From Amphibalanus amphitrite (lineage: Eukaryota > Arthropoda > Thecostraca > Balanomorpha > Balanidae), in contig NW_024881503.1 in assembly GCF_019059575.1 (NCBI RefSeq), positions 2,108,001 through 2,172,000 of the forward strand: a stretch of DNA of 64,000 nucleotides. Reading direction: 5' to 3'. Shown here in pieces: positions 8,723-63,346 of the stretch (positions are counted from its first letter, which is position 1; each line of letters opens with the position of its first letter). Under the pieces are notes generated by a model, which saw only the letters and a list, made by a program, of their open reading frames with translations, had not been told where the DNA came from and did not search any database. The translations under genes were made by a program, and so were the position numbers.

Positions 8723-9099
8723 AAGAGTTGCGAATATCAAGGTCACAATCGGTGCACTCCGTGAACGGAAGTGGACCGTTTGAGTGACCGGAAGTTGACG
8801 GAAGGGAGTGGTGGAAACGAAGAGCATCGATTCAATACTCACGCTGTGGCTATTGAATGTATTGACCTTTTTATTTTTGAAGGCCATCGAAATCATAACT
8901 CATAAACTTGTTGAGGGAAATAGAGTACCACGTATATTCAGAGATGATCGTTTTAGGTATGGTGCATACCCTTGCCAAGTTGAAGTCTTCCCAGATTCTA
9001 AGCGCTAGATGCACATTGCACAAGCATAACCAGAGGATGATGAAGGAAGGCTATGTGGTTCAGGTAAGACGAAGAACGCTTATGCATGACCCGTCTATC

Positions 9100-10688: not shown

Positions 10689-10808
10689 CAGGGGCGGATC
10701 CAGGAATTTTCGGGAGGGGGGGCGGCAAGTCGAAATGGGGGCGACCTGGCGATCCGGGGGCGCTCCATACAAAGGGGGCGCCAAACCGTCAAAATCGGGA
10801 GCTAAAAG

Positions 10809-12004: not shown

Positions 12005-12099
12005 TTAAAAGTCGTAGATGGGCACCGCTACCCTAGCAAAAGATATTAGCAAAAAGGTGACCTCCATTTACTGGTGCAGTCCTCCTCCTCCCGGTCCTT

Positions 12100-18648: not shown

Positions 18649-18652
18649 TTAA

Positions 18653-19649
18653 CCCGCGCACCGACCGGGGGGGGGGGGCGGATATCCCCCCCCTGAGGTT
18701 TTTCGCGGATAGCGAGAAAACCGCGGCGCGGCGCGAAATTTGGTATGACTATTCTCTCATCAATTTTGCACATGGTGTGCAAGTTTGAACCTCCTAACTT
18801 TCAAGGTCAGGTCACCAGGTCACTTTGAATGACCCAACATCAAGTCACTTTTTTGCAACTTTGTCACCGTGCCAGAGCTACAGTAGATGTCGGAGGCCTT
18901 TGAAAGTCGCAGGATGTTATTAGGTCATTAGTAGCTACAATTTGTATATCTCGGAATTTCGATGTCGGTGACCTAAGGTCAGGTCAATTTCGCGACCTCC
19001 CCATTATAAGTCAATGCAATGGGGGAAAAATCAACTCCCTGTTTTTACCACTAAAACGGGTCGGAATGGCCCCATATACCAAACATGACTTCATATACGA
19101 TCAACCTTCACTACCTTGAGGTCTGTTTTGCTGTTGGGCAGCTGTAAGGTCATGTGACGTCATCAAAGGTCACCAGCGGTTTTTTGCCAATAACTCCGTA
19201 CAGGAACAAGATACAGCCGCGCGGATGGTCTCATTGTGTTCAGCTCGTCAAGACGCATCGAATGATATACATGATGACCTCGAGGTCACGTGACCTGAGG
19301 TCAACTTTTGACCTTGACCTTTCGAGGTCAACATATATATCATTCGATGCGGATTGACGAGAGGATCATGATGATGCCCTTAGTTTGTTCTTATCTTGAC
19401 TAATTCGAAAGTTATTCGAGAAAAACTCCATATCTAGCGCCGCCATTTTGACTTTTTCGACCCCTGTGACGTCATCTTTGACCTGACCTGAAAATGACCT
19501 TGGTAAAAATTGTAGACCTTGTCCGTGCGTATCCGATGCCGTTTGCCGCTTGTCGCTATCTTGCTTCGTTCTCGAGATCTCAGGGGGGGGGGGGCGGTCA
19601 TCCGCCCCCCCGTCGGTGCGAAGTTGGCGCACCGACTTCGGTGCGCGGG
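18653..19649. mobile_element. TTAA-flanked AGGTCA-rich element A
   Basis: Bordered by TTAA at 18649-18652 and 19650-19653, with ends CCCGCGCACCGAC and the inverse GTGCGCGGG. TTAA duplication with CCC...GGG ends is the piggyBac-type signature. Near each end is a G-tract/core/C-tract palindrome. The body has dense AGGTCA words, including a long palindromic stretch around GAGGTCACGTGACCTGAGG, and no transposase. Confidence 0.85.
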
Positions 19650-19653
19650 TTAA

Positions 19654-21448: not shown

Positions 21449-21459
21449 ATGGACGGAAG
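21449..21459 (+). CDS. Peroxidase-family gene exon 1 (start codon)
   Basis: AACATGGACGGAAG followed by the donor GTGAGG. It adds M-D-G and the first two bases of an Arg codon, completed by exon 2's G, giving MDGRWLSAR then a Leu run. Phase and signal-peptide fit are good, but the exon is tiny and rests on inference. Confidence 0.5.
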
Positions 21460-24400: not shown

Positions 24401-27400
24401 TATGGTGTCAGTGACCCTAAATTACATTCATTCTGCAGCTAACTTTCAGCGACATGCCTTTATCTCATGTTGACGGAAAATGTAAAACTCATACATGATA
24501 CCTGAGGCCATTTACCGTTGCGACATGTGTTAGATCGTGACTTTTTCCAAAGATCTGCATGCTTATTCGAGAGCTGATGTAAGACGCCTAGTCAACTGTT
24601 AACCCTTATATAAACTGGTGCAAACTGGCCACTTTTCAAATGATACTTAAAATATCAACGGGCGCACTTGACCCACATCATTACCTATCCATGAAAAAAT
24701 ACCCTCATGGACACCCGTTTCGACTCAGAATTGTGAACTCACGTTATATCTGCGCTGCCCTGAGCTCGGTGACACCGCCGCGAACACTGAGTAAATAATG
24801 GAGGCCGAGCTGCCGCTTGTGACAAGGAGCTATAACCACTCAGCCTTCGCTGTCTCCTTACCGATGGCAGGTGTCCAAAACAGGCCGTCCACCGGGTTAC
24901 CTTGAGCAGCAGTTCGCCGGGGGTTCTGCATGCTATCAGCGGATTAGGTCAACATATATCTGTGTACTAGGTCACGGGTCAAGTGCACGTGTAACAGGGC
25001 CCATGCTGTCTGTACCGGTCACCGGCAGCCGGTGCCGCAGGTCGTGCATATTTAACGGGCGTTTCGTTGGTATTTCCATCACGTTTTGAGTGACGTCAGT
25101 GGGCAAGTTATGGCCCTCTCTTTGTGTCATGCCACCCAGTTGGGGCAGGGCCAACCAGAGGCCGATACTCTACCGCCCACTTGGGTCAACATAGGCCACT
25201 GATTAGACCTTATGAGGTATAGCCTAGTCGCAGCAGGATGACTACAACTTTGACTCAATTTTCTACTCCAGAGCTAAGACAGGGAAGCACCATACGATAG
25301 TTAACAATATTCATTACACGTTGAACAAATGAGAATGATGAGATTCAAAAACGGCAATTCTTGCACAATGGCGTCACACAGAACCCATATTGTAGCATTA
25401 ACCACACTACCCAGCGCGTTCATATAAGGCTAAACTTTCATTGCGCCAATCTGAGCAGTCTCAGAATTCGATCAGTCATCCCACATTTGGCCTGACAGGT
25501 GTCTGGACTGCTGTCATGACAGGGATCTGGCGACAAAACCGCTACCCCGGGCGCCACGTGCCCGCCCGATCAGCCTCGCCCACTGCTATCAACACACTGT
25601 TCTGGGGTTGCACAAGGTTCGTGCGGTTGCCCGCCTCGATTTGTGTTGAACACGACTCAGACACAAATCTATGCTTCAGGTGATTATGAAACCGGGGGCC
25701 TAGAAATGCATCGTTTATATGGCGAAAGTGAGCCCATTGTCTTGACCTCACGTAAGCAAATTGTTTTGAGCGTGAAAAAGAGCCGCTTTGAGTCGACCGT
25801 CTTCCGTCTTGGCATTCAAGCTTTACAAATAGGTACGTTCATCCGAGTACAAAAAAAAGATAAAGTAGAATGAGTTAGGTTACTGAACGGGAGTGATCAA
25901 TATAATTGCGTTTTGAACTGTGTCAACCATACAGCTGATATAGGTACCTACAAGCTGAACTTTGGCAGGCAGAGCTGGGTGAAGAAATCGAATTGCTGAT
26001 ATTTGGACAGGTGCAGCTGGACAACAGAACCAAACTGCTGAGTGTTTTTACAGATTGAGCCAGACGGCAGAACTTTTACTGTCCAGGCTTTCTAACAGGC
26101 GAAGCTTAGCGATGGAACAAAACTACTAAATATTTTTTTAAACAGGCTCAGCTAGGCGGCGGAAATGAACTTCTGAGGCCTTATGCCAACTGAGCTGGCT
26201 TACGGAATAGAGCTGCTAAGGTTTTTGAGCAGGCGAAGCTAGGGTGGGGGAACAGAATGCTGAGTGCTGATACTGTAGCTCACGGATCGGTCGGTTGGCA
26301 GTGTGAACCGGCACACTGCGCGCGCTGCCGGTGGCCTCACAAGGTCGCCAGGCGACCCGGGGCCGCAGAGCCGTGACTGTGCGCTGCACTGCACCATGAC
26401 TGTCTATTAGTCATGCTTCAGCTCTGACGTTCACTGGGGGTGGGGAGCGGCACTCATACACTCACACAGTGCACTATGGCTGGAGTGGGCTGAGGCGGGT
26501 GTGAGAAAAGATGATAAATTGCAAGTAATGCTGCAGTCATCCATTTGTGTGAATGCGTTATCACTAATCGCTTTGACGGCTTGATTAACGATAGTGTAGA
26601 TCTTGTAGGTGTATGAGTCAGACCATTCTTCAAGGAAGCACCTCCATTCAATGCACTGTAACGCGATGCAAAGCTCGCATTGGATGGAATGAATTCCTGG
26701 TTTAATTAATGACGAATTTAGGGAAGTAACCTCAACCAATGGTGGATCATAAGCTACAATATTCTATAATTATACGATAAATAGTTGTTTATGGCTTGCG
26801 TGACAATGCCTTACTACTTTTTGCTGTTCTTGTGTTTGTATCGGAGCAGATGCTGTCGAAAACTTTGTTCGTGTATGGCTGGAAGTGCGTTAGAACGATT
26901 AAGGAGAAGGCAACAATTTTTCGCGCATGATGCATAACTTAGATATTAACCCATTAATGCCGCTTGGGTCATATATGACCCAAAAGCAACATCTTAACAT
27001 TTTTTCTAAATGGAGGCAAGTGGCACTTTGAGGAACTTGTGCGTGTGTTTTGTTGGATTTGTGGGTTCAGCGACGAGCGTCTGAGCCGCATAAAACTCGT
27101 GTGAGCTCGTCCACTGAAGTTTCTGGAGCCAAAGGCGACGGGACTGCACAACCGCCGGTCACAGGAAATGGCGCGCCGTCCCAAAAAGTAATATTATATT
27201 ATGTTTGCACTTTACTATCTATTGAATGATCGTCCACCTGGCATCTAAATTTGTCTGAAAAAGGCATGATGTATATTTTTGCCCTTCTTGTCGCCATCGG
27301 ATAACTTTTTTTCCTCGATAAATATCCTTGGGTCATAAATGACCCAGCCGGCAATAGTGTTGTCAATTTTCTCGTATGTTGAATACAAGGGAAGCAATTG

Positions 27401-30400
27401 ATGATTATACGATTATTTATTTCTGGGGATTGTGGTCAGATCACAGTGGTGGATCCAAAGGAGGGGGGTCATATGGGTCACTCATGACCTCCCCTGGGAC
27501 CCGGGGGCACCACCGACCTATCAGGGGCACCACAGGCCTAGTGTTGCGATGTTGGGATATCATGAGCGGACCGGTTGTCCGGGGCCGTGACGCGGGGCGG
27601 GCCGGCGACTCGGCCGGCCGAGGGGCACCACGGGCCTGTCAGGGGTACCACAGGCTTGTTAGGGGCACCACAGGTCCGCAGGAGCACCATCGGCCTAGCA
27701 AGAGCACCACAGGTCTGTCAGGGGGCACCACAGACCTGCCAGGGGCACCCGCCAGAGGCCTGCCAGGGGCACCATCGACCTCACAGGGGTACCACCAGCC
27801 TCGCACGTGCACCTTGGGCTTGTAAAGGGCTCCACGGGCCTGTCGGGAGCACTTCAGGTTTGTCAGGGGCACCACAGTCCTGCCAGGACCCAGGGGCACC
27901 AGCGGCCTAGCAGGAGCACCACAGGCCCGCCAGGGGCACCACAGGCCTGCCAGGGGCACAACAAACCTAGCAATGACACCACAGACCTGTCAGGGGCTCC
28001 ACAAGCCTGTCAGGGGCACCTCAGGCTTGTCAGGGCCCAGGGGCACCACAGTCCTTCCAGGGACACCACAGGCCCGTCAGGCCTATGGTGTCCCCTCAGG
28101 AGCACCATAGGCCTAACAGGGGTACCACAGGCCTGCCAGCGGCACCAACGGCCTCGCCAATGAGACGTTGCAAAGCATTGCAATGCAGTGCCTCTTAACC
28201 CTATTCCTGGCGGGCTCCGCCGGGACAAGAAACTGGCGGGGGGGGGCCGATTCGGCTCCCCCCTGAGATCTCGAGAACGAAGCAAGATAGCGACAAGCGG
28301 TAAACGGCATCGGATACGCACGGCCAAGATCTACAATTTTTACAAAGGTCATTTTCAGGTCAGGTCAAAGATGACGTCACAGGGGTCGAAAAAGTCAAAA
28401 TGGCGGCGCTAGATATGGAGATAGTTTTTCTCGAATAACTTTCGAATTAGTCAAGATAGGAACAAACTAAGGGCATCATCGTGATCCTCTCGTCAATCCG
28501 CATCGAATGGTATATATGTTGACCTCGAAAGGTCAAGGTCAAAGGTTGACCTCAGGTCACGTGACCTCGAGGTCATCATGTATATCATTCGATGCGTCTT
28601 GACGAGCTGAACACAATGAGACCATCCACGCGTCTGTATCTTGTTCCTGTACGGAGTTATTGGCCAAAAACCTTTGGTGACCTTTGATGACGTCACATGA
28701 CCTCACAGCTGCCCAACAGCAAAACAGACCTCAAGGTAGTGAAGGTTGATCGTATATGAAGTCATGTATGGTATATGGGGCCATTCCGACCCGTTTTAGT
28801 GGTAAAAACAGGGAGTTGATTTTTCCCCCATTGACTTATAATGGGGAGGTCGCGAAATTGACCTGACCTTAGGTCACCGATATCAAAATTCCGAGATATA
28901 CAAATTGCACATACTGGTACCCTAACTAAACCCTGAAGAGAAGAAATTGATCGGTCAAAAACTCTAGCTCTGGCGTGATTGCAAACTTTTCTGAGATAGG
29001 GTCACCAAACCGCCTCTGGTGACCTGACCTGAGGTCAGATCAACTCAAAATTTTCAGACATGTTGCGTAGAAGCCTTTTAGGAAAAGTCAGAAAATTTGA
29101 GCTTCCTAGCTCAACGCGTTTGGGAGAAATAATAAAAAAAACCTCAGGGGGGGGGGGCTCCTGAGGCCCCCCCCCCCCGCCAGGAATAGGGTTAACCCGC
29201 GCACCGACGGGGGGGCGGATATCCGCCCCCCCTGAGGTTTTTCGCGAATAGCGGGAAAACCGCGGCGCGTAGCGCCGCGAAATTTGGTATGACTATAACC
29301 TCATCAATTTTACACATGGTGTGCAAGTTTGAACCTCCTACCTTTTAAGGTCAGGTCACCAGGTCACTTTGAATGACCCAACCTCAAGTCACTTTTTTGC
29401 AACTTTGTCACCGTGCCACAGCTACAGTAGATGTCGGAGGCCTTTGAAAGTCGCAGGATATTATTAGGTCATTAGTAGCTACAATTTGTATATCTCGGAA
29501 TTTTGATTTCGGTGACCTAAGGTCAGGTCAATTTCGCGACCTCCCCATTATAAGTCAATGGGGGAAAAATCAACTCCCTGTTTTTACCACTAAAACGGGT
29601 CGGAATGGCCCCATATACCATACATGACTTCATATACGATCAACCTTCACTACCTTGAGGTCTGTTTTGCTGTTGGGCAGCTGTGAGGTCATGTGACGTC
29701 ATCAAAGGTCACCAAAGGTTTTTGGCCAATAACTCCGTACAGGAACAAGATACAGACGCGTGGATGGTCTCATTGTGTTCAGCTCGTCAAGACGCATCGA
29801 ATGATATACATGATGACCTCGAGGTCACGTGACCTGAGGTCAACCTTTGACCTTGACCTTTCGAGGTCAACATATATATCATTCGATGCGGATTGACGAG
29901 AGGATCACGATGATGCCCTTAGTTTGTTCCTATCTTGACTAATTCGAAAGTTATTCGAGAAAAACTCTCTCCATATCTAGCGCCGCCATTTTGACTTTTT
30001 CGACCCCTGTGACGTCATCTTTGACCTGACCTGAAAATGACCTTTGTAAAAATTGTAGATCTTGGCCGTGCGTATCTGATGCCGTTTACCGCTTGTCGCT
30101 ATCTTGCTTTGTTCTCGAGATCTCAGGGGGGGGGGGGCGGTCATCCGCCCCCCCCCCCCCCGTCGGTGCGAAGTTGGCGCAGACCCCCGTCGGTGCGCGG
30201 GTTAATATTGTTTGGCTGAGACCGCTATACAGTATACACAATAAGGTATCTAGCTAAATTGGTTTTCGTGATAACTCCTTATTTGTGACTATGCCAATGC
30301 CGGTTGGGTCATTTATGACCCATACTTATAACTTGAGAACCGATGGAACAATTTCTTTAAGCTTGCACAGTTTTCTTACTGGGACCCGTGTGGCTAACAT

Positions 30401-33400
30401 TTGTTAAGGACAACTAAAGAATCAAAAAATAAAAATTCCGGCATTAATGGGTTAAAGTTAAAAAATGTTGGAAAAAGTATCATCATCGAAGCGGGCTGGT
30501 GTCAAACTTAAATTTAACTCTCTTTACTCACTCTTTGCTCTTCACTCCCTCAATAACGTTACCCTTTATTCCCTCTTTGCTCACGCCAGGTGGCTGTCTG
30601 CGCGGCTGCTGCTGCTGCTGCTGTGTGGGTGCGCGGCGGCCCTGCGGCACGGCTCGTTCAGCGAGGACGAGGTGCGGGCCGCTCTGGACACTGCCGCCGG
30701 TCAGATTCAGCACCTGCTGCCGTCCTCAGGTCAGTCGATTGGGGGAGCGGGTCGTCGGAGAGCCAAACTGACCTGTTTCTGGACAGGACCCATTCCGACA
30801 CCAAAACACCAAATATATGCTTTACAATTGACCGTTCCAATCTGAATTGTGAACTCATTTGAGCTTTGTTTCTTTTAAAGTGTTGTATCGAGTTAACCCA
30901 CGCCCCGTTGGGCTCTGCCGAGCAACGCGCCCCGTTGGGGGGGGGGCATTTTGGCCCCCCTTAAGATCTCGAGAACCACGCAACCTAGCGACAAGCAGCA
31001 AACGGTGTTGGATAGCCCTATCAGGGAACTACCTTGTGACCCAATTTTATTGACCTAGGTCAAACCGATGACGTCACAGGTCAGGTCAAAGGTCCAATTT
31101 TCACCGTTTACAGGCATTTCAAGAAATGCGTTGTAAAATCGAGTAAAATGCATTTCATTGAAAATCATTGATGGGGAAATGTTCTTCAAACACATATTTT
31201 GCTATTTGAGGTCACTGACACCAGGTCAGGTCACAGAGGTCAGGTCACTGGGGGGTCACAATATGAAAGTGTCGTGTGATGCATGTTTTATGGTCCATTT
31301 TACATGACAAATGCGATTATGTGGGTCAGGCAGCCTTTGGGGCCAGCTTAGGTCACGTTTTGGTCAAGATCAGGTCAAGGTCAGGTCAAGGTCAGGTCAA
31401 ATTAGGTCAAATTTCAAAGTTAATATTTTTCATAAAATGGGTATTGAATCGATGCAGCTTGTCACGGGGAGTTCAATGGTGGTCTTTGTTTTGCCGTACG
31501 TGGTCTAGAATCGCTAAAAATTGAGCTCAAAAATTTGACGTCATCATTTTTGAACAGTTTTTTCGCTATAACTTGGCCAAAAAACGAGGTATCGATCTGA
31601 AATTTGGTATGTATATAGAAGAGAGCAGGGACTATCACATATATTCCGGTTTTCTCGAAATTCGGAAAAAGTTTTTTTTTTAGTTTTTCTAAATAAATCA
31701 ATTTTTTGATTTTTTTTTTGGGGTCAAAAACCAAAAATTTTGAAAATCCGAGATAGCAGTTTTGTAGCGCCGCTTTTTGTCTACTAGACCATATAAAGAA
31801 CTTTGAAATTGCTTGATAACTGTAGATTTGGTGAGCGTTTCAAGATTGCATGTTTTTTGCTCATTTTTGCTCGAACATGACCTCAGTTTGACCTCAATAA
31901 CTCCTGACCTAAGACGACCTTAGACTTGAAATTTGGTGTGAAGGTGTCAAATTGATGCCCGGGAAGGTACTGATAATTTGGCGGCGCTGCGCGCCGCCGT
32001 TTTCTTGCTATTTAGGAAAAACCACAGGGGGGGACCAAAATGCCCCCCCCCCCCAACGGGGCGAGGGTGCTCTATGCTCTTCCAGTCAAAATACGACAAA
32101 TTAATGTCGGTTTGGATGACAGCTTTGTTCAGGAGCTACATCTGTGGCGGCTAGCTTGAGCCATAAAACAAGATTGCAAAGGGACACATCGGTGTCACCC
32201 GTTATTGAGGCGCCTCCAAGTTCCAAAGCGTTGTCGGTCGGGTCGGCCGCTGCTGATATTGTCCTTCAGCGGCGCGGCGCAGAGCTGAGGTGTAACCCAG
32301 CCAAAGCTGGCCAGGTCGCAGCGTTTGGTCGCATGTGTGGCGCAACACGGCCTGCTCATGTGTGCAGCGTCCCGTCCCGGGCGGACAGAATCGAAGGTGG
32401 CCGAGGCTGTTGTAACATCTGACTAAGGACCAGTCGCAGCCAGAGGACATGGGGCTCTCATGGGGGCAGATGGAGGACTTCCTCCTTTCTGATGCTGAAG
32501 GGCCCCAGCGGGGAGCCGGAGGATCTCTCTTCTCTGAAGGCCGATTGAGGTCAGGGTAGGAGCTGGTCCTCTCAGTCAGCAAAATGAGGACACAGCGGAA
32601 ACGCGTCCCCTCAGGACACCGTTGGACGTCCCTCCAAATGAGGCGCAGTACTCTCAGAGGGCCGCTGGGAAGGTCGGGCCAGCGCCGCCGGCTGACGAGC
32701 ACTGGTGTCTGCTCAGTTGGTCGGCTGTCACGGTCAGCGCCGGCGGCGGTCGCCGACACTGACCCGGGTACTGTCCGACTCCCCTGGGCGCCGCCGCCAC
32801 TCCGCCCGGCCTCGGCCCGGGCCCTGCGGGCGACTGTCCACAGCCGCAGGGCTCGCCGGCACCGGCAGACCCAGTTCACGCGCCCCATACTGCCGCTCGT
32901 TACACCCAGCGCGTGCGAACATTCCATTCGCATGCACCAGTTATTGCGGTGAATTTTGGGAAAACCCTGTGATGAGATCACTGCCAATGTCGCGGGCTGA
33001 CTAGCAACGAGGGAATGTCATTCGACTAGCCCACGACGCAGGTTATGCTAATGCTGCTAGAGATAAGACGGGATGGCACCGGCGCGGCAGACCAATGCGC
33101 TGAGTCAGCCAGGTGTGATTCAAGGCCAAGGCAGGTGAGGGGAAGTACCGTCCTTCAACGGCAGCGTGCTCCGACGACAGGTCATCACTGCACATGGGCA
33201 TGCGGGAACGTGCTAGTCGGGCCCTGCATTCTGTCTGAAACCTCAATTTGTCGCCTTGATGAAGCATATGTTTCGCTACTAAGACTGGCGCACGCCGGCG
33301 CAAAACGTTTGTGTGTGTTTGGTACTCAGTGTTACACATTTCATTCATTTAATTTCATCTAACGTAACAACGAACCCTTAGTTTGATGTGTTTATTTGCC

Positions 33401-36400
33401 AGCCTATTTCAACTTCATGTATGACAAGCCCCACTGTTCTTTATTAGAATACGCTCATACTGATGTAGGATGCCGCAACGTTTTTATCTGCGGATGAGCA
33501 CAAATTGCAGGATACATCATGCATCTCTTATCTGCTCATTTATCAGCTTTATCAGTGTTTTTTTTTTCGACCAAATCAATCTAAAGAATCAAGGCCAATA
33601 GTTATCAGGCCATCACAGCAAATCTTCAGTGGCACCTGCACAACTGTCGTTTTCACTGCATTCACGTTCCGTTTCTTCGTTCACGGCCGGCCACTGTCGT
33701 TTTCATTCCGCGCGCTGTTTTCGATTCACTGTCGTTTTCATTCCGCGCGCTGTTTTCGATTTACTGTCTGGTGTGTTGTCGTGTGTTTCTGGCGCACGAG
33801 CGCACCCGTGCCGCCGCCCCGGCTCGTGCCCGAGTCCTGAGTGCGCCCGTGCCGCCGCCGCCCGCCCCGGTCCGTAGCTGAGTGCGCCTGTGCCGCCGCC
33901 AGCTGATTGGGCCCGCCGGTCGACAAGACTGGCGCGGATAGGCAGAGACGACGCACGCCATTACGTTTTGTTTACTTGGTGATTAACGTAACGACTCAGG
34001 AAAGAGTTCTCGGAATAAATCTCGTTTAACTCATTAAATACAACTCTTTCATTCGGACCGACCGAAACACAACATGGCGCGGTCGGTATTGTGATTATTA
34101 AGTGATTGAGTTTTAAAGTATATAGACATGAGTGAGAATGAGAGTGAGGTGCAGACACTATCGGCCCTGCTGCGGAGGCAGGCCGAGCTATCAGCCCAGC
34201 GTGAGGAGCGCCTGACGAGCATGATGGAGAGCCTGATGTCCAGGGAGCTCTCCACGGGAATGGGAACGGACACGACTACCGACGCGGCGGGGGCTGAGCG
34301 GGGCGCTGACGGCCGTTCCACCACCGCCCGCCCAGCCGTCCGCCTGCCGGCTTCGGCGACCCCGGCCCCGTACCTGACCTCTTCAGCCTCACTACGTGAG
34401 TTCACCGTATGGACGGAGAAGGTGAAGGGCTATTTTCTGCTGACCGGAGCCGGTGAACTACACGTGAAAGGCCAGCGCGCCGCGCTGCTAAGCTTGCTAG
34501 ACGAAGACTGGCACCGAGTAATCCGTTTCGGGCTCGACCTGACTGAGGACGCGACCCCGGACACCGTCATGAACGCCATGGAGGGTCACCTGCCACCTGT
34601 AGTGGTCGGTGTCGACCACTACAGTCACCTGCCACCGACCACCTGTAGTGGTCGGTGTCGGGCAGCGCCGCACCTACCTGGTGAAGACGGGAAGCGGAAG
34701 AGTCCTCTGGCGGAATCGGCGATTCCTCCGTCCCTACCGGCCACTGCTTGAGACTGGAGGGCCACCCGCCGCTGAGCCGCCCCGCGCGGCCGCAGATGGC
34801 GCAACGCCCGGCGAGTCCGTCCCCGCCACCGTCGGAGCAGCCGCACCGCGGCCGCCCCCGCTGCGCCGGAGCAGCCGTGCGCGCCAGCCCCCCGATCGCT
34901 TGTCCGTGCGCTGGGGTGGTGTGACCTATTCTCCGTAGTGAAGACGACCGCAGTCGTCTTGGGGGGAGATGGTGTGTTGTCGTGTGTTTCTGGCGCACGA
35001 GCGCACCCGTGCCGCCGCCCCGGCTCGTGCCCGAGTCCTGAGTGCGCCCGTGCCGCCGCCGCCCGCCCCGGTCCGTAGCTGAGTGCGCCTGTGCCGCCGC
35101 CAGCTGATTGGGCCCGCCGGTCGACAAGACTGGCGCGGATAGGCAGAGACGACGCACGCCATTACGTTTTGTTTACTTGGTGATTAACGTAACGACTCAG
35201 GAAAGAGTTCTCGGAATAAATCTCGTTTAACTCATTAAATACAACTCTTTCATTCGGACCGACCGAAACACAACACTGTCGTTTTCATTCCGCGCTGTTT
35301 TCGATTTACTGTCGTTTTCATTCCGCTCGCTCTTTTCGATCCACTGTCGGCTTCTCTCCGGGTCGCCTCTCCTGTGCACTGTTCAGCCGGAGTAGGTCAC
35401 CCCCTCCGGCCACTGCAGGAAGGTCACTGCATGCAACCGGCCGGCCACTTTCAGCATCCAGAATGCAAGAAATCGGCGCGCGAGACACGCTCGCCTCTGC
35501 AGCAGTTGGGAACAGCGCTGACGCCTGCTCGCCGTCACTCTAGTCCGATGGCAATGCTCCAGGATGACAGGAGCAAACCGATCGACGTTACCCAACGGAC
35601 CGGGTGCCGGCGCGGCTGGCAATGCGGCGCACTGAGCACAAACGTGACGGCCGCAGGCGTCGTGTCACGACGTGACGTCATCTCGGTCGTGACTCGTGAG
35701 TCGGCACTGCAGGCGACTCGGCGCTGACTATCGTCGCTGATACTCAGCGCTGACCTCGCCGAGGTACTCAGTGACGTGAAGCACGTGCTGACGGGGGCTG
35801 CAGACCACTGAGGGAGTGGAAGATTGTTTCTCTAACCTTCATGGCTCCCGATGGATTTGGCTTGGATTTGGTTCCCATCCCATCATTTCAATGATTTCAA
35901 TTTGAGCTTGAAATGCGCTGCATTTCGCTTTGCTTATGTTGACTCGTTTCAATGGTCGCTCGTCAATTGACAAGCCTGATTTGGTCTTAATAATTTCGAC
36001 CTCCTATACTACCTTTGACAAACTAATATTCAAAATAAAAACTATGTTTTAGACATAGTGTGGAAAGAACACCTTACGGGCTACTTTTCTGACGGGAGGC
36101 TTTAAGCTAGCTTGTTTCCCAAGCGTCATAGATGAATCGGCTTCGGGAAAAAACTCAAGTGGGTACCTACCGTACTACATTTACATGTCCATATTACGCC
36201 ACTTTTGACTTGGACCGAGCAATCGAAAGGGTGCGTTGTAACTTTATGACCCACTGCTGAGGGCTCGGGGTCGAAAGTCGGCCATCGGAAGATGACTGTC
36301 TGATTTGGACTCCATGACAAATCCGTGCTACCATTTCTGGCTATGGTCCGATCGTAGAGTGAAGAAATCTACCAGAAGCCCGATACCGTCAGTCGTGATA

Positions 36401-57400: not shown

Positions 57401-60400
57401 AATCCTACCAACTGTAACTTTGAACGGCACGAGCTCTTATACAGTACATACCTATCCGGTTCATGAATTTGTCAATAGATGACGCTAGTGTCGACGCCTG
57501 ATAGGAAACTGTGCCGCAACACTCGAAACGGATATTCAGCGCGCGGCGTGGCTGGCCATTACGCCAAATGTGGCGATCAAATCGTATCAACATGATCAAC
57601 AGAGCAATTCTTCCTAAAGACCAGTGGTTGTCGCCTCTTTGCATAATAAAATACGGTATTTCATATTGTTCCTAGTAGGTGATTAAGAAGTTCCTTCCAT
57701 CTGTCGATGGGAACAGTATCCTAACTTCACCTACCCTTCGTTCTCAGGAGGTGATTGAGTACTTCCAGCTGTCGCCGGGGGTCCAGCAGCGCTACACACT
57801 GGACGAGGAGCCTGCTGTGACGGCCGCCGCTGCCACCGCGGCACTGCACTTCTACCTGGCCCTGCTGCCAGACGCGCTGCACTACCAGAACAGGGTCAGT
57901 CGGGGGATTATTAGTCAGTCTCAAGTTTAGTTCTTCAGTCAGCCGGGAACGACCAGAGGACGTCTAAACTTGTTGCTGTAATTTGACGCATTCTCCAAAT
58001 CGTACATTTTTTGCTCTCATTCTGTCTTCCGAGCTATGAAAAAACGGAATTATTTTTTATCCGTCGTTTATGAATGTTTTTTGTCCGATCAGTTTTCACC
58101 GATAGCTATTTTGTTTGAGCACGGTCGCGTGGCAGGAGCTTTGGAACTATTGTCGTCAGCGTTATCCGGGAATTCCCTGCAGTTTTGTATCTCATACCGT
58201 TTACTGATATCCGTGTTTCTCCTCGGACCCGCAGGACGGCGCGGAGGTGGATCAGACGCCTCTGTCGGACTCCTTCTTCTCGTCCTCTGACCTGTACCGG
58301 ACCGGTCGGCTGGATCAGCTCTTGCTGGGGCTGAGCAGCGGCCCCGCATCACAAGGAGATTCGGTCACCGAACAGGTCACACGAGGTACGTGGGGTCATT
58401 GAGAGCTCAACCGAAGGTAGGTGCGCGTCACAGAAAGGGCCAACCGGTGCGTGAGGTCAAGCAAAGGTCACCTGAGCCGCGGCAGGCCGCGGAACAGGCC
58501 ACCCGGGCTGCGTAGGTTCATCGAGCAAATAAGTTGGCGGAGGTAGAGTTTTTTTTTTGTCAGACCTTCAATATAAGTTTGTAACTTTATACGTAGTGTT
58601 TCTTGCTAATCGTAAATGGTTGATGAATTCCATGTCATTTTGTCGTCTTGAAATAGCCATGCTTGCTTTTAAAATTCGACCCGTTTAATATTTTCAGCGC
58701 TGGACCTGGACCTGCTGGCCTACACTATCCAGCAGGGGAGGGATCACGGCCTGCCGGGCTACGGCAGCTTCCGCAACCTTTGCGGCCTGACCGAGGCCCA
58801 TACCTTCGACCAGCTCAATAAGACGATGACAGAGGACAAGCTGAACCTGCTGCGGACTCTCTACAGCTCTCCTTCCGAGGTAGGCCTGAAAACCCAAAAG
58901 AGCATCTTCATCATCACAGCGGTTGTCCTTTCTTGGCGGGACAAATTGCTAGACGTAGTGAAGATGAAAATTGTGGTTAAGGTTTGATCGGTCTTGATAA
59001 TATACACTTACTTTCAACGCTTATTCCTTTCAATATCTCTCTATCCTTTCCCTCCATCCACAAAGTTTTCACCGGCTCTGCGCTCTCCAGGTTGATCTGT
59101 TCGTCGGTGGTATGCTCGAGTCGCCGCTGGAAGGCGCTGTGGTCGGCCCTACCTTCGCCTGTATTCTGGGACAGCAGTTCCGTACAGCGAGGAGAACAGA
59201 CCGCTTTTGGTATGAGAGTGACACGCCGCCTGCCGGGCTCTCAAAAGGTGAGGCTGATGACGTCAACGGGCTTCTTACAAGCCAGATGCTGATTGTTAAC
59301 CCGGCACCGCCTGGGCTATTTCCGTACCCACGACAGCCTGGGGGGGGGGGGTCGGATCCGACCCCCCTGTTATCTCGAGAACCAATGGTCGTATCGAGCC
59401 CCGCGAGGCGGCGTTCGAAAGGTCTCTACGAGACCTTCCCAAAGCACTCTTAAGATTTTAAGATTGAGGTCAACTTTCGGGTCAAGGTCAGGTCAAAGGT
59501 CAAATTCTGGGGTTTTGCATGATTAAGCTTACGGACAGCGGAATCGACAGCTGCTGCTCGAAACTCACCAAAAATGACCTCAAAGACCTAGTGAAGGTAC
59601 CATGTGCGTATAGGGGTCATACTAAGTACGGGTCAAGGTCAGGTCAGGTCACGAAAGGTCACGGTTTTCACTTTCTGCTACATGGGCGTGCGACACATGT
59701 TTTATGGCTTATTTTTCACGCCGAATCCGATGGTAATGGTTATATGTGACCCCAAGTCACTGTGCTTGGTGATAAGTGTGCATTGAAAGCATAAAAAATC
59801 GTTTATAGGTACCATACATAACTAAGAGAGGGCTAAGAAAAAACGTCAATTTTTCAACTTTTTATTTTTGACATAAAAATGCACTTTTCTAGACTAGCTT
59901 TGTCCCAGGAATCTAGTGGTGCCATTTGTTTTCACATGCGATGTTCAGAAGTGCCTCTAATTCACGAAAATGCTTATGACGTCACCATGCCCTATGCATG
60001 TTGGAGCTATTTTTTACAATTTGGGGGTCAAAAATCAAGATAGAAAGTTGAAATTTGGGACATCTAATGTTCTAATAGAGCTCTATAACATATATTCCGG
60101 TTTTTTGGAAATTCTCAAAATTTTGGATTTTATGAGCTGTTTTCCAAAAATATAGTTTTTTGATTTTTTAGGGGTGAAAAACGCATTTTATGGAAAATCC
60201 GAGATAGCCGTTTTAAAGAACTCGTTGAGCTGCATCTATTCATGCCCTTAATTTGCAATTTGCTTTAAACCCTGATTTTTGGCGATTTTTCAAACATTTA
60301 CCACTTTTTGACTGAAAACGCCATGTAGTTACATCACTAAAATCGATATATCTCAGAAAATTTTGGAAATTTTTTCTTAAAAATTGCACAGGAGACGTCA

Positions 60401-63346
60401 AATTGATGGGGGAGAAGGTATGCCAAGTTTCAAGTCGATAGCGTAAGCGGTTCATAAGTTATTCAAGAAAAACGGAGGGGGGGGGGTCGGATCCGACCCC
60501 ACCCAGGCGGTTCCGGGTTAACACATTAATTGATAAACGCAAATTAACCCGCGCCCCACTGGGGGGGGGCTATTTATAGCCCCCCCTCCCGTTTTTCTGC
60601 AATAACTTCCAAACTGCTTGACGGATCGACGCCAAACTTTCAGGACCTTCGGCTGCATCAATTTGACACCTTGTGTCAAAATTTGAACTTCGTAGGTACC
60701 ATAGGTCGGCCGGAAATGACGTCAGAGTGACGTCATGTTCGTCCGATTTCGACGCAGAACATTGAACCACGGCAATCGCTCCCAAGAGCTCAGTTTTTAA
60801 GCTAGATCCAATTTCTTTGCATGAAAGGACTCAGAATTGACCGCGCTATCAAACTGCTATCTCGGATTTTCAAAAATTTGAAAATTTCCAAAATTTTATA
60901 TAATTATATTCAAAATTTATATTTTTATATTTTTTTCAAAAAGTTTTTGACTTTTCGAAAAAACCGGAATATATGTGACAGAACGCATGATGTTGACTAA
61001 CTCTAGCAAGTTTTAGCTAAATATCTTCAAAAATGGCCAAGTTATACGCATTATTGCAAAAAATTCACAATTATTAATTTTTCAAATCAATTTTTCAGTA
61101 CGTATTTGACATCGTACACCAATATAAATGACACCATCGTGTTCCTGAGCTCAAACTGCATCCATTAGACACCTTTTTTGTTGAAAAATGTAAACTTCAA
61201 AATTTGACCTTTTTTGACCTGAAAGTGACCTGACCTAAGCGAAATTCGACTCCAAATGACCTCAAATGACACAGACGACATCAAATTCGAAATCTATGGC
61301 CTAAATGGACCATAAAACATGTGTCACGTGACCGACGCATGATATAATATTTTCGTGACCTGTGATGACCTGACCCTGACCTGAAAATCAAAGTACAAGT
61401 TTGGTACCCTCAAAGTATCTAGAGCATCTCTTCACGAGTGTGGAAACCAAAAATGAGCCTGATCTGACTTGTAAGACGGCGGCCAGAGCCCAAAATGTGA
61501 ACAAGCCAAAATGCTAATAATTTTTACTTTGACCTGACCTGTGACGTCATCGGTGACCTCGAGGTCAATGAAATTAGGTTTCGCTCGACAGTTTTTCCGG
61601 GGCTATCAGACGCCGTTTGAATTTTGACGATCGGTCCAGTAGTTTCGGAGTTAGGAGGGGGGGCTATGAATAGCCCCCCCCCCCCAGTAGGGCGTGTTAT
61701 ACACAGACCCCAGTGGGGCGCGGGTTAACATTTCGATAAGTAAGCAATAAGCATACGAGCAAGTATAATGTCACAACACTGACTTCAATAATAACTTATC
61801 GATTATTGTTAATAAATTGATAAATACAATGATAATCAATTGTTGCCTACTCACACTTTTCATCAATAATAGGTACGGGGAACGTCTAAATCAGACGGCC
61901 ATCACGGTCAAACCCACTCTTAGGTCATGCCTGTTACTCAGCCCATCCTGACTGTCTCACTCCCCGTCCACAGAGCAGCTCTATGAGATCCGCAAGGCCA
62001 GCGTGTCCCGACTGCTCTGTGACAACGTGGGCAGCCTGCAGTCTGTGGCCCCCAACCCGTTCCTGCGGGCCGACACCTTCCTGTGAGTGAGACGCGGACG
62101 CGGCTTGGTGTGATTGGCGTGTTCTTCTCGTGTTTGTGGTCTTTCTATCACCAGCCATGCTATACTATACATAAACTGGCTTTGAAATGGCAAGCACCCA
62201 TCACCCATGAACCAGTATTCAGAGTAGGTATAATACGTCCTGTTGATGCCTCTTGCTGGTACCCTTCTCTGAGCCTATGTAACTCCCTACCCTCCCACAG
62301 GAACGCCCCCGTTCTGTGTAATATGCTGCCGGCCATGGACCTGCTTCCCTGGAAGGTGGCCGGCTCGGGACTCCTCGTGCCAGAGCCCCTCTTCGGCGAC
62401 GTCATTGGCAGCGCCAAGAGCGACCTCGAGCGGCGGAGGCACGAAGAACGGCTTCTATTTGAGCTCGGTAGGTGGCACGGCACTGTCAGCCTGCATGTCA
62501 AATAGGTACACTTTAGTCTGAAAATGGCCTGTTATATATAAAAGCTCTGTATTAATCATCCTTCACCTTTCCATGCTTCTATCCTCAGGATACTGAAATC
62601 CTTCTCCTCCACGCCGCAACCCTCCTCCGGGCTGGACAGGCAACTTTATCTCATGCGGGCTGCTCCCTTGGAGCGGCACCGCTGCTCCCGAGGGAGCGCA
62701 CCCCGTAGCCGGGTGCAGTGAGTGCCTTGGGGCTGGGTGGCCTGTCTTCGGACGGGCTCAGCCCCGGCGACTCACTAGGGTGCCTGCCCAGACCAATGTC
62801 TCCCCCTAATTCCTATCATCCTTCCGGCTCTGCAATGGTCTTGTCGACCGAAAGGGCCTAACCCAACAAAACAAACAAAAAACAAACAAATAATCATCCT
62901 TCTTCCGACTTCATAAACAACTTAATGCCAAAGTATCCATGTCATTCTGCTAATAACATCACCGTAAAACTGGTAAAATCGTTCCATCTGCCGCTCATCC
63001 ATTGCCTTTTTCTCTACAATGCTTGTCTGCCAGTAACATCATAATTTTCATGCGAATATCTTGGTAACTTCTCCCAAATAGCCAGCCTGTAAAATAGCCA
63101 GTCAGCTCAATGATTGACCTATCATTAGAGCTCGTAAGGCGTCCGTATTTCCGCTCACGCCGGATGACCTACCCCTCTCCCTTTGACTCAGTTCATACCG
63201 TCCATTCCAGACATGTCAGCGGACCACAAGTCGGCGCTGGGCACGGCCCTGGCTCAGAGCAGACCCACTGAACAGGCTCTGGTGGTGGCCAATACCTCGC
63301 TACTGCTCGAGTACGCCTCCAGGAAACTGATGCACACTATGATGAA
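21449..63346 (+). CDS. Animal haem-peroxidase-family protein, probable pseudoenzyme (3' end outside window)
   Basis: Sixteen exons with matching phases give ~739 residues: 21449-21459, 30590-30729, 52667-52799, 53149-53268, 54361-54455, 54685-54843, 55151-55270, 55568-55742, 55985-56201, 57748-57894, 58235-58385, 58698-58879, 59091-59247, 61974-62082, 62301-62467, 63211-63346. Exons 1-2 give a signal peptide, so the protein is secreted. Family marks: RSLDGRCNN (135-143), distal His210 in WGQLISHDLT, calcium loop SAFLDAS (269-275), catalytic Arg326, REHNRLA (342-348), IQQGRDHGLPGY, VDLFVGGMLE, DRFWYE. Compared with myeloperoxidase, Asp94 is Ser209, Glu242 is Thr329, proximal His336 is Leu427 and Asn421 is Thr499. 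Haem ligation therefore looks lost. The frame is otherwise intact, so it is not a decayed pseudogene. Subfamily unknown. Confidence 0.85.
21460..26949 (+). other. Intron 1, proximal part
   Basis: 5.5 kb without recognised genes. It holds C-tracts at ~23425 and ~23465 and a degenerate ~44 bp tandem repeat at 25955-26275. Its far end is occupied by the nested transposon complex. Confidence 0.45.
25955..26275. repeat. Degenerate tandem repeat, unit ~44 bp
   Basis: About seven units built on CAGGC-AAGCT-GG--GGAACA-AACTGCTGAG and a T-rich tail, strongly diverged from one another; an old minisatellite. Confidence 0.6.
27480..28165. repeat. Minisatellite, ~20 bp unit AGGGGCACCACAGGCCTGTC
   Basis: Roughly 30 imperfect direct copies of the unit, with some longer variants. 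It yields long spurious frames on both strands. Confidence 0.85.
28199..29191. mobile_element. TTAA-flanked AGGTCA-rich element B
   Basis: TTAA at 28195-28198 and 29192-29195; ends CCCTATTCCTGGCGGG and CCCGCCAGGAATAGGG. The body from ~28255 to ~28900 is the reverse complement of the body of element C and of element A, but the terminal repeats are of a different sequence. Confidence 0.85.
29196..30201. mobile_element. TTAA-flanked AGGTCA-rich element C
   Basis: Shares the TTAA at 29192-29195 with element B and ends at TTAA 30202-30205. The ends CCCGCGCACCGAC and GTCGGTGCGCGGG are those of element A, and the body is in the same orientation as A. Confidence 0.85.
30590..30729 (+). CDS. Peroxidase-family gene exon 2 (signal peptide)
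   Basis: Pyrimidine-rich tract then acceptor CGCCAG; donor GTCAGT. It encodes WLSAR, a run of six Leu, CGCAAAL (signal core) and the start of the mature region SFSEDEVRAALDTAAG. It leaves phase 1, matching exon 3 about 22 kb away. It starts only 134 bases after the end of element D. Confidence 0.65.
30897..32067. mobile_element. TTAA-type AGGTCA-rich element E (intron 2)
   Basis: TTAA at 30893-30896; ends CCCACGCCCCGTTGGG and CCCAACGGGGCGAGGG. The right target copy has mutated to TGCT. Palindromes with core CATTTTGG (left) and CCAAAATG (right) sit between the G and C tracts. It belongs to the second body subfamily, with ATATATTCCGGTTTT and ATGTTTTATGGTCC words. Confidence 0.75.
32068..33640. 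other. Intron 2, segment after element E
   Basis: 32200-32950 is GC- and CpG-rich and open for 261 codons on the minus strand. The product has no recognisable domain, so I do not call a gene. It may be a CpG-rich regulatory region. Confidence 0.3.
33655..33768. repeat. ~37 bp tandem repeat around the LTR element, left part
   Basis: Units of CACTGTCGTTTTCATTCCGC and GCGCTGTTTTCGATT. The same array resumes at 35276-35350 after the retrotransposon, so the insertion split a minisatellite. Confidence 0.65.
33769..34074 (+). repeat. 5' LTR
   Basis: 306 bp, starting TGGTGTGTTGTCG and ending AAACACAACA. Identical to the copy at 34970-35275 as far as I can read. Contains AATAAA at about 34015. Flanked on the left by CTGTC. 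Confidence 0.9.
34128..34751 (+). pseudogene. Truncated gag-like frame of the LTR element
   Basis: Begins MSENESEVQTLSALLRRQ, a charged coiled N-terminus followed by a Pro/Ala-rich linker and a capsid-like stretch (FTVWTEKVKGYFLL, DEDWHRVIRFGLDL). It runs out of homology at about 34590, where a 21 bp direct repeat (34594-34614 and 34640-34660) marks a rearranged junction. Downstream codons are out of frame with the pol remnant. Assignment to gag rests on position and character, not on a specific motif. Confidence 0.6.
34640..34938 (+). pseudogene. Pol C-terminal remnant of the LTR element
   Basis: A frame ending at 34938 contains GRVLWRNRRFLRPYRP and RRSSRARQPPDRLS, the basic tail typical of Gypsy-type integrase/pol ends. 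Protease, reverse transcriptase, RNase H and the integrase core are absent. Confidence 0.6.
34970..35275 (+). repeat. 3' LTR
   Basis: Same 306 bp as the 5' LTR, followed by the target duplication CTGTC. Confidence 0.9.
35281..38380. other. Intron 2, mid part
   Basis: Begins with the rest of the split minisatellite (to ~35350). No other gene, RNA or clear mobile element is recognised. Confidence 0.4.
38381..39135. repeat. Tandem duplication, copy 1
   Basis: Starts aaaaacagaattgataacg and ends cttgtcgagttcatga. It is repeated 770 bases downstream at 39151-39911. The copies differ mainly in lengths of C and G tracts (for instance G10-11 versus G16-17 near 38753 and 39528). The copy contains the first ~85 bases of the TA-flanked element. 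Confidence 0.9.
39151..39911. repeat. Tandem duplication, copy 2
   Basis: Direct repeat of 38381-39135, continuing into the full TA-flanked element, whereas copy 1 stops inside it. Confidence 0.9.
39824..40795. mobile_element. TA-flanked MITE with GTAAGAGTACGC motifs
   Basis: Ends GGGTAAGGGCGGGTAAGAGTACGC-type (left) and GCGTACTCTTATACGACTTCACCC (right, as read), bordered by TA at 39822-39823 and 40796-40797. The word TAAGAGTACGC or its complement occurs at about 39835, 39855, 40220, 40552, 40572, 40598 and 40771. No transposase frame. Organised like the element at 14049-14997 but with a different motif. Confidence 0.65.
41025..42199. mobile_element. TTAA-flanked AGGTCA-rich element F
   Basis: TTAA at 41021-41024 and 42200-42203; ends CCCGCGCGGGGCTGGG and CCCAGCCCCGCGCGGG, perfect inverse. 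G-tract/core/C-tract palindromes have core TAAATTTTA at both ends. The body has runs such as AGGTCAAGGTCAAGGTCAGG, ATATATTCCGG and GGCGGCGCTGCGCGCCGCC. Confidence 0.9.
42204..44723. other. Intron 2, segment between elements
   Basis: Short open frames occur at 42547-42900 and 43752-44051 (the latter Cys-rich in part). Neither has a recognisable domain or splice context. I see nothing else. Confidence 0.35.
44732..45746. mobile_element. hAT-type non-autonomous element, 8 bp duplication AGTACATA
   Basis: Ends CATGGGTGGAGAA and TTCTCCACCCATG, bordered by AGTACATA at 44724-44731 and 45747-45754. Sub-terminal GTTACCCCGGCC repeats occur at both ends. No transposase. A tRNA-like stretch lies inside at about 45237-45310. 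Confidence 0.8.
45237..45310 (+). other. tRNA-derived-looking segment
   Basis: GTCTCGTAGCTCAATCGC resembles a tRNA 5' half with a good A box (TAGCTCAATCG). The B-box position (GTTCCGGTTAC) is poor and no full cloverleaf could be drawn. Likely a SINE head or a decayed tRNA. Confidence 0.35.
45755..46443. other. Intron 2, short segment
   Basis: 45940-46100 is unusually rich in AGCTAAG/AGCTGA words. Otherwise nothing is recognised. Confidence 0.3.
46448..47618. mobile_element. TTAA-flanked AGGTCA-rich element G
   Basis: TTAA at 46444-46447 and 47619-47622; ends CCCGCGCCCGACTGGG and CCCAGCAGGGCGCGGG. Palindrome cores GTGTTTGAACAC (left) and its inverse GTGTTCAAACAC (right). The body resembles A, B and C (cattcgatgcg, GACCTCAGGTC, AATGGGGAGGTCGC). 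Confidence 0.88.
47623..51340. other. Intron 2, segment without recognised features
   Basis: GC-rich around 48640-48780 with an AAATATAGG word; nothing else stands out and I see no gene. Confidence 0.35.
51341..51640. repeat. Minisatellite with TGTCCCGAGGCGGGG / TGTTCCGAGGTGCGGAG units
   Basis: About ten imperfect units of 22-27 bp, in two variants arranged in blocks; weaker units extend to ~51750. Confidence 0.75.
51760..52666. other. Intron 2, end
   Basis: No gene recognised. The last bases (tctcgttgtccattgacag) form the acceptor for exon 3. Confidence 0.4.
52667..52799 (+). CDS. Peroxidase-family gene exon 3
   Basis: Acceptor TTGACAG, donor GTAATG. Encodes the propeptide-like region DLGAGRPRPSPAW to AKLLLDG, rich in Pro and Ala; phase 1 in, 2 out. 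Confidence 0.75.
52866..52925. repeat. Small inverted repeat in intron 3
   Basis: catagataacagtagaac and the inverse ctgttctactgttatctatg form a ~22 bp imperfect hairpin. Confidence 0.5.
53149..53268 (+). CDS. Peroxidase-family gene exon 4
   Basis: Acceptor CCCTCAG, donor GTCAGT. Encodes the region before the peroxidase domain and its first cysteines (GKHCPGADQTPCQPSKFR). Confidence 0.85.
53933..53990. repeat. Simple repeat (GGCCCGGCCCGGACC)n
   Basis: Short GC-only tandem repeat in intron 4. Confidence 0.8.
54361..54455 (+). CDS. Peroxidase-family gene exon 5 (domain start)
   Basis: Encodes SLDGRCNNVQQATWGS and PLSRLLPAQYSDG, the canonical entrance of animal peroxidase domains; donor GTAAGC. 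Confidence 0.9.
54685..54843 (+). CDS. Peroxidase-family gene exon 6 (distal His)
   Basis: Encodes WGQLISHDLTLISP. Distal His210 and the calcium Asp211 are kept. The residue before His, Asp94 in myeloperoxidase (haem ester), is Ser209. Confidence 0.9.
55151..55270 (+). CDS. Peroxidase-family gene exon 7
   Basis: Cysteine-rich segment EEQCCQNPAGAHCLPM to CRLG, matching the family's CC...C.P...C...RS...C pattern; donor GTGAGT. Confidence 0.9.
55568..55742 (+). CDS. Peroxidase-family gene exon 8 (calcium loop)
   Basis: Encodes REQLNMASAFLDASALYGTD. S-x-F-x-D-x-S matches the T/S-x-F-x-D-x-S calcium-binding loop; donor GTAAGG. Confidence 0.9.
55985..56201 (+). CDS. Peroxidase-family gene exon 9 (catalytic Arg)
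   Basis: Encodes AADRRAATHAGTTALY then TLLTREHNRLA. By alignment 20 residues before REHNR, Arg326 equals Arg239 of myeloperoxidase and Thr329 replaces haem-ester Glu242. Ends phase 0 at FLPAVLGQ. Confidence 0.9.
56223..56505. mobile_element. hAT-type MITE, duplication CGCAGTAA (intron 9)
   Basis: Ends TAGTGATGTCAAT and ATTGACATCTCTA, flanked by CGCAGTAA at 56215-56222 and 56506-56513. The interior is a set of ATACCAA/TTGGTAT words that can pair. Confidence 0.8.
56683..56939. mobile_element. hAT-type MITE, duplication GACAGGTA (intron 9)
   Basis: Ends CATAGGCGCGGGA and TCCCGCGCCTATG, flanked by GACAGGTA at 56675-56682 and 56940-56947. Contains a G13 tract and a ggggcaccgcccc hairpin. Confidence 0.85.
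57748..57894 (+). CDS. Peroxidase-family gene exon 10 (proximal-His region)
   Basis: Encodes ATAALHFYLALLPDALH where family members have ATAAFRFGHSLLP. The proximal haem-ligand His is Leu427 and the Gly before it is Tyr426. His424, three residues upstream, is the only nearby His. Confidence 0.9.
58235..58385 (+). CDS. Peroxidase-family gene exon 11
   Basis: Encodes LSDSFFSSSDLYRTGRLDQL and VTEQVTR, the family's L.D.FF...L...G.DDLL segment; donor GTACGT. Confidence 0.9.
58698..58879 (+). CDS. Peroxidase-family gene exon 12
   Basis: Encodes LAYTIQQGRDHGLPGYGSFR and CGL. The Asn that hydrogen-bonds the proximal His (Asn421 in myeloperoxidase, N in NIQRxRDHG) is Thr499. Confidence 0.9.
59091..59247 (+). 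CDS. Peroxidase-family gene exon 13
   Basis: Encodes VDLFVGGMLESPLEG, VGPTFACILGQQF and DRFWYE, all conserved family blocks; donor GTGAGG. Confidence 0.9.
59300..60517. mobile_element. TTAA-flanked AGGTCA-rich element H (intron 13)
   Basis: TTAA at 59296-59299 and 60518-60521; ends CCCGGCACCGCCTGGG and CCCAGGCGGTTCCGGG. Palindrome core TCGGATCCGA at both ends. Second body subfamily. Confidence 0.88.
60548..61724. mobile_element. TTAA-flanked AGGTCA-rich element I (intron 13)
   Basis: TTAA at 60544-60547 and 61725-61728; ends CCCGCGCCCCACTGGGG and CCCCAGTGGGGCGCGGG. Palindrome cores CTATTTATAG (left) and CTATGAATAG (right). The body is inverted relative to F and H (AAACATGTGTCACGTGACC, AACCGGAATATATG). 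Confidence 0.88.
61974..62082 (+). CDS. Peroxidase-family gene exon 14
   Basis: Encodes QLYEIRKASVSRLLCDNV and NPFLRADTFL, the typical C-terminal part of the domain; donor GTGAGT. Confidence 0.9.
62301..62467 (+). CDS. Peroxidase-family gene exon 15 (domain end)
   Basis: Encodes NAPVLCNMLPAMDLLPW, the closing cysteine and MDL..W block, then a charged stretch (SDLERRRHEERLLFEL). Confidence 0.88.
62565..62890 (+). mobile_element. 5'-truncated LINE 3' end with 12 bp duplication
   Basis: The fragment ends in a CAAA-rich tail (acaaacaaaaaacaaacaaa) and is flanked by TAATCATCCTTC at 62553-62564 and 62891-62902. Tail plus duplication indicate target-primed retroposition. No protein remains. Confidence 0.7.
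63211..63346 (+). CDS. Peroxidase-family gene exon 16 (last in window)
   Basis: Acceptor ATTCCAG, donor GTGAGT after ATGATGAA. Encodes DMSADHKSALGTALAQSR to KLMHTMMK, a helical tail beyond the peroxidase domain; phase 2 out, so at least one more exon lies past 64000 or undetected. Confidence 0.75.

Follow-up and report, generated by a model that had tools for sequence, protein, structure and literature searches.

TTAA-flanked elements of Amphibalanus amphitrite: end motifs that match within copies and an interior exchanged between neighbours

A tip beginning with CCC is a feature of piggyBac itself. For the piggyBac element of Trichoplusia ni, the excerpted descriptions give a right end with a 17-bp insertion and a sequence duplication, a 19-bp palindromic repeat at both ends that is bound by a dimer of the C-terminal domain and, for shortened ends in cells, a wild-type enzyme that needs an asymmetric pair of ends for full transposition and a hyperactive enzyme that is less strict (PMC7351741, PMC11707139). 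Small relatives have been described in corals, where the CMITEs of Acropora, which are piggyBac/TTAA MITEs, measure about 100 bp and, in the first eight to be discovered, have TIRs of 13-14 bp, according to the sections consulted (PMC2872659). In Daphnia, the corresponding extracts assign Pokey/mPok to the piggyBac superfamily and report MITEs of about 750 bp in two lineages, with ITRs that match the autonomous lineages A and B (PMC3849761, PMC4912750).

Based on nine near-complete copies, all from one window (the whole 64-kb stretch of Amphibalanus amphitrite DNA analysed here), we propose, with moderate confidence, that the elements of this locus are non-autonomous piggyBac-like TTAA elements in which each pair of ends fits one transposase lineage, none being seen among the 30 of 106 ORFs scanned, and the interiors of which can recombine. 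The copies, located via TTAA sites and self-comparison of the window, are 1001-1226 bp long. An earlier sequence-only reading had described ten elements, A-J, with TTAA targets and CCC...GGG ends. The target and the tips are confirmed, with TTAA at both ends of 7/9 copies (A, B, C, F, G, H and I; one is lost in E and one in J) and CCC at 18/18 ends, but the range that it covered holds eight complete or near-complete copies, the ninth, J, lying outside it at 10.8-12.0 kb. The letters used here may not coincide with the earlier ones.

One asymmetric end plan, with a long and a short end, is common to all nine copies. The short end reads TTAACCC, a 10-bp motif termed R, a G-tract, a core and a C-tract; the long end reads TTAACCC, R, a linker of 15-17 bp (17 bp in 6/9 copies), a second R and then again G-tract, core and C-tract. 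R is thus found once at the short end and twice at the long end in 9/9 copies, starting at bp 8 (bp 9 at the short end of E), with the inner R of the long end 25-27 bp inside the outer one. The G-tract/core/C-tract arrangement is present at 18/18 ends (with just three C at the long end of J), three of which, the short end of H and both ends of J, are missed by a strict G6+...C6+ pattern. This strict pattern occurs 16 times in the 64 kb, and 15 of these sites start at a distance of 17-18 or 42-44 bp from the end of an element, while the sixteenth, at 8676, falls in an apparent decayed relative. Spanning about 8200-8726 of the window, this relative has a single G/core/C site (8676-8704) alongside several AGGTCA sites, and its opposite end was not located.

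The cores, delimited by hand for all nine copies, show a dyad symmetry of 0.75 compared to 0.59 when shuffled, a value reached in 0 of 5000 shuffles. Symmetry exceeds the shuffled mean at 14/18 ends, the exceptions being three long ends (A, C and J) and one short end (E); the long-end core of E is barely above that mean. The E cores are indeed hardly symmetric (0.50 and 0.44 vs 0.46 shuffled): E carries the non-palindromic core CATTTTGG at both ends, one letter off between them. Moreover, in G, and in F by its centre base, the cores depart equally from symmetry at both ends when read inwards. A literature search, conducted largely outside subscription journals, did not find G/C-tract palindromes of this kind.

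On the plus strand are located E (30893-32072; G/core/C sites 30937-30960 at the long and 32027-32054 at the short end), F (41021-42203; long-end palindrome 41065-41092, short-end palindrome 42163-42186), G (46444-47622; 46488-46511 at the long end, 47574-47605 at the short end) and H (59296-60521; 59340-59367 at the long end and about 60477-60500 at the short end). The right TTAA of E is lost, and we set the right limit of this copy through comparison. On the minus strand are A (18649-19653, from TTAA to TTAA; palindromes 18667-18693 at the short and 19583-19611 at the long end), I (60544-61728; 60561-60586 at the short and 61657-61685 at the long end) and J (10805-12008; short-end palindrome 10823-10844, long end about 11940-12008), in which the short-end TTAA has decayed and which is 73% identical to G across 1182 aligned positions. 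The remaining two copies, B (28195-29195, plus strand; G/core/C sites 28238-28263 at the long and 29147-29178 at the short end) and C (29192-30205, minus strand; palindromes 29209-29232 at the short and 30126-30161 at the long end), are inverted neighbours with one TTAA common to both. They are hosted by a second kind of TTAA element (26946-30455), which is about 1.5 kb without them, has CCCATTAATGCCG as the first 13 bp of both ends and contains a GGGTCATATATGACCC-like palindrome, which lies some 20 bp in from the left end and roughly 130 bp in from the right.

For R and for the core alike, agreement between the two ends of a copy exceeds chance. Between the short-end R and the outer long-end R, 9.3 of 10 letters agree within copies and 4.9 between copies (reached by 1 of 200,000 permutations); for the inner R, the figures are 8.0 within and 4.8 between (3 of 200,000 permutations). 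Mean core identity is 0.78 within copies and 0.44 between them, as reached by 4 of 100,000 permutations; omitting A gives 4 of 50,000, omitting A and B 15 of 50,000, and omitting A, B and J 77 of 50,000. That the cores match end to end had been claimed before, and this stands for F, G and H, with identical cores, for E and I, with a single letter off, and in part for A (0.7) and C (0.8), but not for B (0.45) and J (0.30), the two of nine copies with unmatched cores. The other end of the same copy is the sole best core partner in 5/9 copies (E-I). In A it shares first place with C, and in C with A and H (the C short-end core being equally near to the long-end core of H and to that of C itself); B and J have their best partners in other copies. 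The match of R, its doubling at one end and copy J go beyond the earlier description.

The matching is confined to these motifs. For the 30 bp just inside the palindromes, end-to-end identity is 0.50 both within and between copies (45,737 of 100,000 permutations reach it), yet flanks on the same side are alike between copies, at 0.65 for long and 0.70 for short ends or, without A and B, at 0.63 and 0.71 vs 0.52 across sides. The matching hence spans R and the palindrome and stops at the C-tract. Same-side cores have an identity of 0.43 between copies (0.40 and 0.46 without A and B).

Alike bodies are found only among A, B and C. Every other pair is 38-75% identical in a multiple alignment, and between the two groups formed by A, B, C, G and J and by E, F, H and I the bodies are near the shuffled baseline, as are the long-end flanks of many pairs; we do not claim for all pairs that cores evolve faster than bodies. 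The bodies of A and C are 97% alike, their R is the same, and their cores are equal end for end, long to long and, except for one letter, short to short. A difference between the long- and the short-end core (GATGAC vs GATATC) is kept in both, and end-to-end copying is therefore not seen since the split of A and C, i.e. over about 3% divergence. The sequence-only reading had held that cores differ between copies with alike bodies, and had named cores that simply track body subfamily as an outcome that would speak against it. This outcome is what A and C display, and B, alone in pairing an alike body with different cores, is a recombinant.

B is a chimera with its own ends and an interior from the C lineage, and the only clear chimera among the nine copies. 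In the exchanged interior (28264-28906, plus strand, with limits chosen by us from sequence differences), B differs from C at 5/643 positions (99.2% identical) and from A at 17/639, compared to 18/639 between A and C, and the sites unique to one copy number 15 for A, 1 for B and 2 for C (p 0.002). Outside the interior, 29/69 positions of the long-end tip and 111/247 of the last part differ between B and C, while A and C differ in these parts at just 3/71 and 12/252. With an interior nearest to C, outer parts unlike C, and A and C alike throughout, it follows that B acquired its interior from the C lineage after the A/C split. At the long end of B, the last clear difference to C is in the core/C-tract, and about 44 alignment columns inward comes the first site to group B with C, placing the breakpoint between these two positions. 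As B and C stand side by side, inverted and sharing a TTAA, local gene conversion or template switching would be the simplest route of exchange.

E may represent a second, weaker case of exchange, again with ends of its own. Its long-end inner flank (30961-31014, plus strand) resembles A, B and C, and the remainder of the element resembles F and I. In quartets (pairs separated by a slash), the 60-bp long-end flank groups E with A or C in 4/4 cases (EA/FH 1.00, EC/HJ 0.98, EA/IG 0.95 and EC/IJ 0.75), whereas the body groups E with F, H or I in 4/4 (EF/AH 0.84; EH/CJ, EI/AG and EI/CJ each 1.00); with 110 bp in place of 60, flank support is 1.00, 0.87, 0.64 and 0.54. Across the sample, long-end flanks of 60 bp agree with the body in 3/6 quartets and disagree in 3/6, all three involving E. 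A general shuffling of all modules is rejected, since short-end flanks are concordant with the body in 5/6 quartets (FH/GC at only 0.74), one giving no resolved grouping.

Taken together, we suggest that the elements operate as follows. Each copy would carry one recognition set, consisting of R, two at the long end and one at the short end, and one G-tract/core/C-tract site per end. If piggyBac is a guide, R may be bound by the transposase core and the palindrome by a dimer of the C-terminal domain. Each distinct set would then mark an end lineage of its own, presumably with its own transposase, and interiors would be exchanged between lineages through gene conversion or template switching, with the consequence that copies with unlike ends can have similar bodies. 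A chimera would be mobile only if both of its ends still fit one transposase, and this demand for fit to one enzyme is our proposed cause of the matching within copies. A more far-reaching version, in which the three tip motifs and two palindromes form an end cassette, the shared G and C tracts act as recombination joints and interiors travel between elements that answer to different transposases with the end pairs staying matched, appears doubtful to us. In B and in the long-end flank of E, own sequence first visibly gives way to shared sequence at the C-tract of the palindrome, although the true breakpoint in B could be up to about 40 bp further in.

How the two ends of a copy came to match can be approached from the non-palindromic core shared by the ends of E and the equal asymmetry at both ends of G, which suggest that the ends of a copy derive from one sequence and have not converged; old inheritance and end-to-end copying are both compatible with the nine copies. 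The sequence-only reading had concluded that both ends must be changing together. Such concerted change, in which inverted ends are kept alike via gene conversion or template switching and a new motif at one end is copied to the other, would account for the features of E and G, and of F by its centre base, that convergence on a symmetric dimer site alone does not predict, and in Galileo, as the part consulted describes, insertions in one TIR became part of both (PMC4168063). We nonetheless find it unlikely here: A and C have retained their between-end difference, the flanks are not copied, long and short ends are distinct in 9/9 copies, and in B it is the interior that moved and not the ends. 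It is possible that end-to-end copying took place at the founding of a lineage, the identity in kind of the two E cores being a candidate trace.

Somewhat less likely still is that new transposase specificities favour fast parallel change at all recognition sites, by selection on both ends and without exchange of bodies. The low identity of same-side cores between copies relative to the adjacent same-side flanks (0.43 vs 0.65-0.70, or 0.40 and 0.46 vs 0.63 and 0.71 without A and B) and the symmetry of the cores above shuffled levels agree with this idea, but B, the only copy that combines an alike body with other ends, shows direct interior exchange, and a non-palindromic core common to both ends, as in E, is unexpected if each end changes independently. 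The length of the G and C tracts and the symmetry of most cores might also point to a role in pairing, through hairpins, cruciforms or annealing end to end, instead of protein recognition; we deem this highly improbable, as the core of E is matched between ends despite its near-lack of symmetry and R, too, matches between ends. We hence favour matched end pairs that each fit one transposase lineage, with recombining interiors.

Regarding affiliation, the elements combine a TTAA target with piggyBac-like asymmetric ends, including a motif duplication and a palindromic internal repeat, and this end plan and target, both read from DNA, support a putative piggyBac membership. The consulted portion of the coral study gives the piggyBac TIR start as CC[C/T]T (PMC2872659); here, the fourth tip letter is T at 3/18 ends (both of B and the short end of E), A at the long end of E and G at the other 14. 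With nine copies of similar size, 1001-1226 bp, the elements are short and present in several copies without coding capacity, as is characteristic of non-autonomous elements and MITEs: the longest listed stop-to-stop ORF wholly inside a copy has 125 aa (31465-31839, in E) and no Pfam match. No transposase was detected among the 30 of 106 ORFs of at least 100 aa that were scanned with Pfam, as expected for non-autonomous copies. Weak matches to HSL_N (E 0.042) and PcRGLX_3rd (E 0.04) fell below the curated score cut-offs. In viral contigs, a scan with the end pattern returned three matches, all to one conserved stretch that no G/C-tract palindrome follows in the bases displayed; we consider these unrelated, and two scans with body patterns returned none.

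Several further features of the window were recorded. The bodies of all nine elements contain AGGTCA/TGACCT, which we take to be the nuclear receptor half-site, often in tandem, with 150 occurrences in the 10.2 kb of elements vs 72 in the other 53.8 kb. TGACGTCA is found in 7/9 elements (14 sites, and 7 elsewhere in the window), and TATTCCGG occurs within the window at 31642, 41778, 60093 and 60964, i.e. only in E, F, H and I, as part of a conserved stretch of bodies that are otherwise 52-59% alike. Two identical direct stretches of 300 bases (the length reported by the tool), at 33769-34068 and 34970-35269, lie 1.2 kb apart and flank an ORF, possibly as a short LTR element, and 38378-39911 holds a tandem duplication, its copies nearly identical and its period about 770-779 bp. 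A fragment of an animal haem peroxidase (59001-59296; Pfam E 4e-18) ends about 20 bp before element H. Pfam matches among the scanned ORFs include a 7tm_7 (chemosensory) receptor, ion-channel and ligand-binding domains and a peroxidase; the ion-channel genes are presumably of the ionotropic-receptor type. By the receptor and ion-channel genes, the window is arthropod-like.

If the pattern holds genome-wide, these elements would offer a natural series of end sets, each of a tip motif and a dimer palindrome, for piggyBac-like transposases, and with it a readout of how a transposase and several binding sites shift specificity together and of whether interior exchange lets non-autonomous elements switch helper. 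As a caution, similarity of bodies and similarity of ends may record different histories in such elements.

In comparison to known systems, the elements share the CCC start with piggyBac. As far as the extracts describe the piggyBac ends LE35 and RE63, the elements further resemble these in the TTAA target, the asymmetric ends and the duplication of a motif at one end with a 17-bp insertion, and likewise in that one palindromic internal repeat recurs at each end, lying deeper at one of them (63 vs 35 bp, i.e. 28 bp, with R displaced by 25-27 bp here). In contrast to piggyBac, no transposase was found here (30/106 ORFs scanned), G and C tracts frame the palindrome, and several end sets coexist. 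In piggyBat, too, an imperfect palindrome comes after a repeated motif and is bound by a dimer of the C-terminal domain, yet, in the account consulted, the palindrome is present at the left end only (PMC11707139). Pokey/mPok, as excerpted, is similar in representing the piggyBac superfamily in a crustacean with large MITEs, but has known autonomous partners; the string "palindrom" gave 0 matches in PMC3849761. Galileo, of the P superfamily, likewise has subfamilies with different TIRs in one genome, and changes in one TIR that are found in both, but according to the same partial source its TIRs diverge less than the transposase segment, and its superfamily and target are different (PMC4168063).

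The closest precedent is provided by the coral CMITEs, which share the TTAA target and, in the portion of the report consulted, have TIRs that differ between families, interiors more conserved than TIRs and, like B here, one copy with an interior from another family (PMC2872659). The main oddity of the present locus is thus of an already known kind. Among our copies, an interior more conserved than the ends is seen for B relative to A and C; elsewhere, inner flanks exceed cores in identity and the bodies are just 38-75% identical. Unlike CMITEs, the elements here are 1.0-1.2 kb long, with a duplicated R, palindromes (0 matches for "palindrom" in the text of PMC2872659) and a traceable exchange between B and C. 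As far as our literature searches went, three features are new: palindromes with G and C tracts, ends that match at five sites in each copy, and an exchange that can be traced between neighbouring elements.
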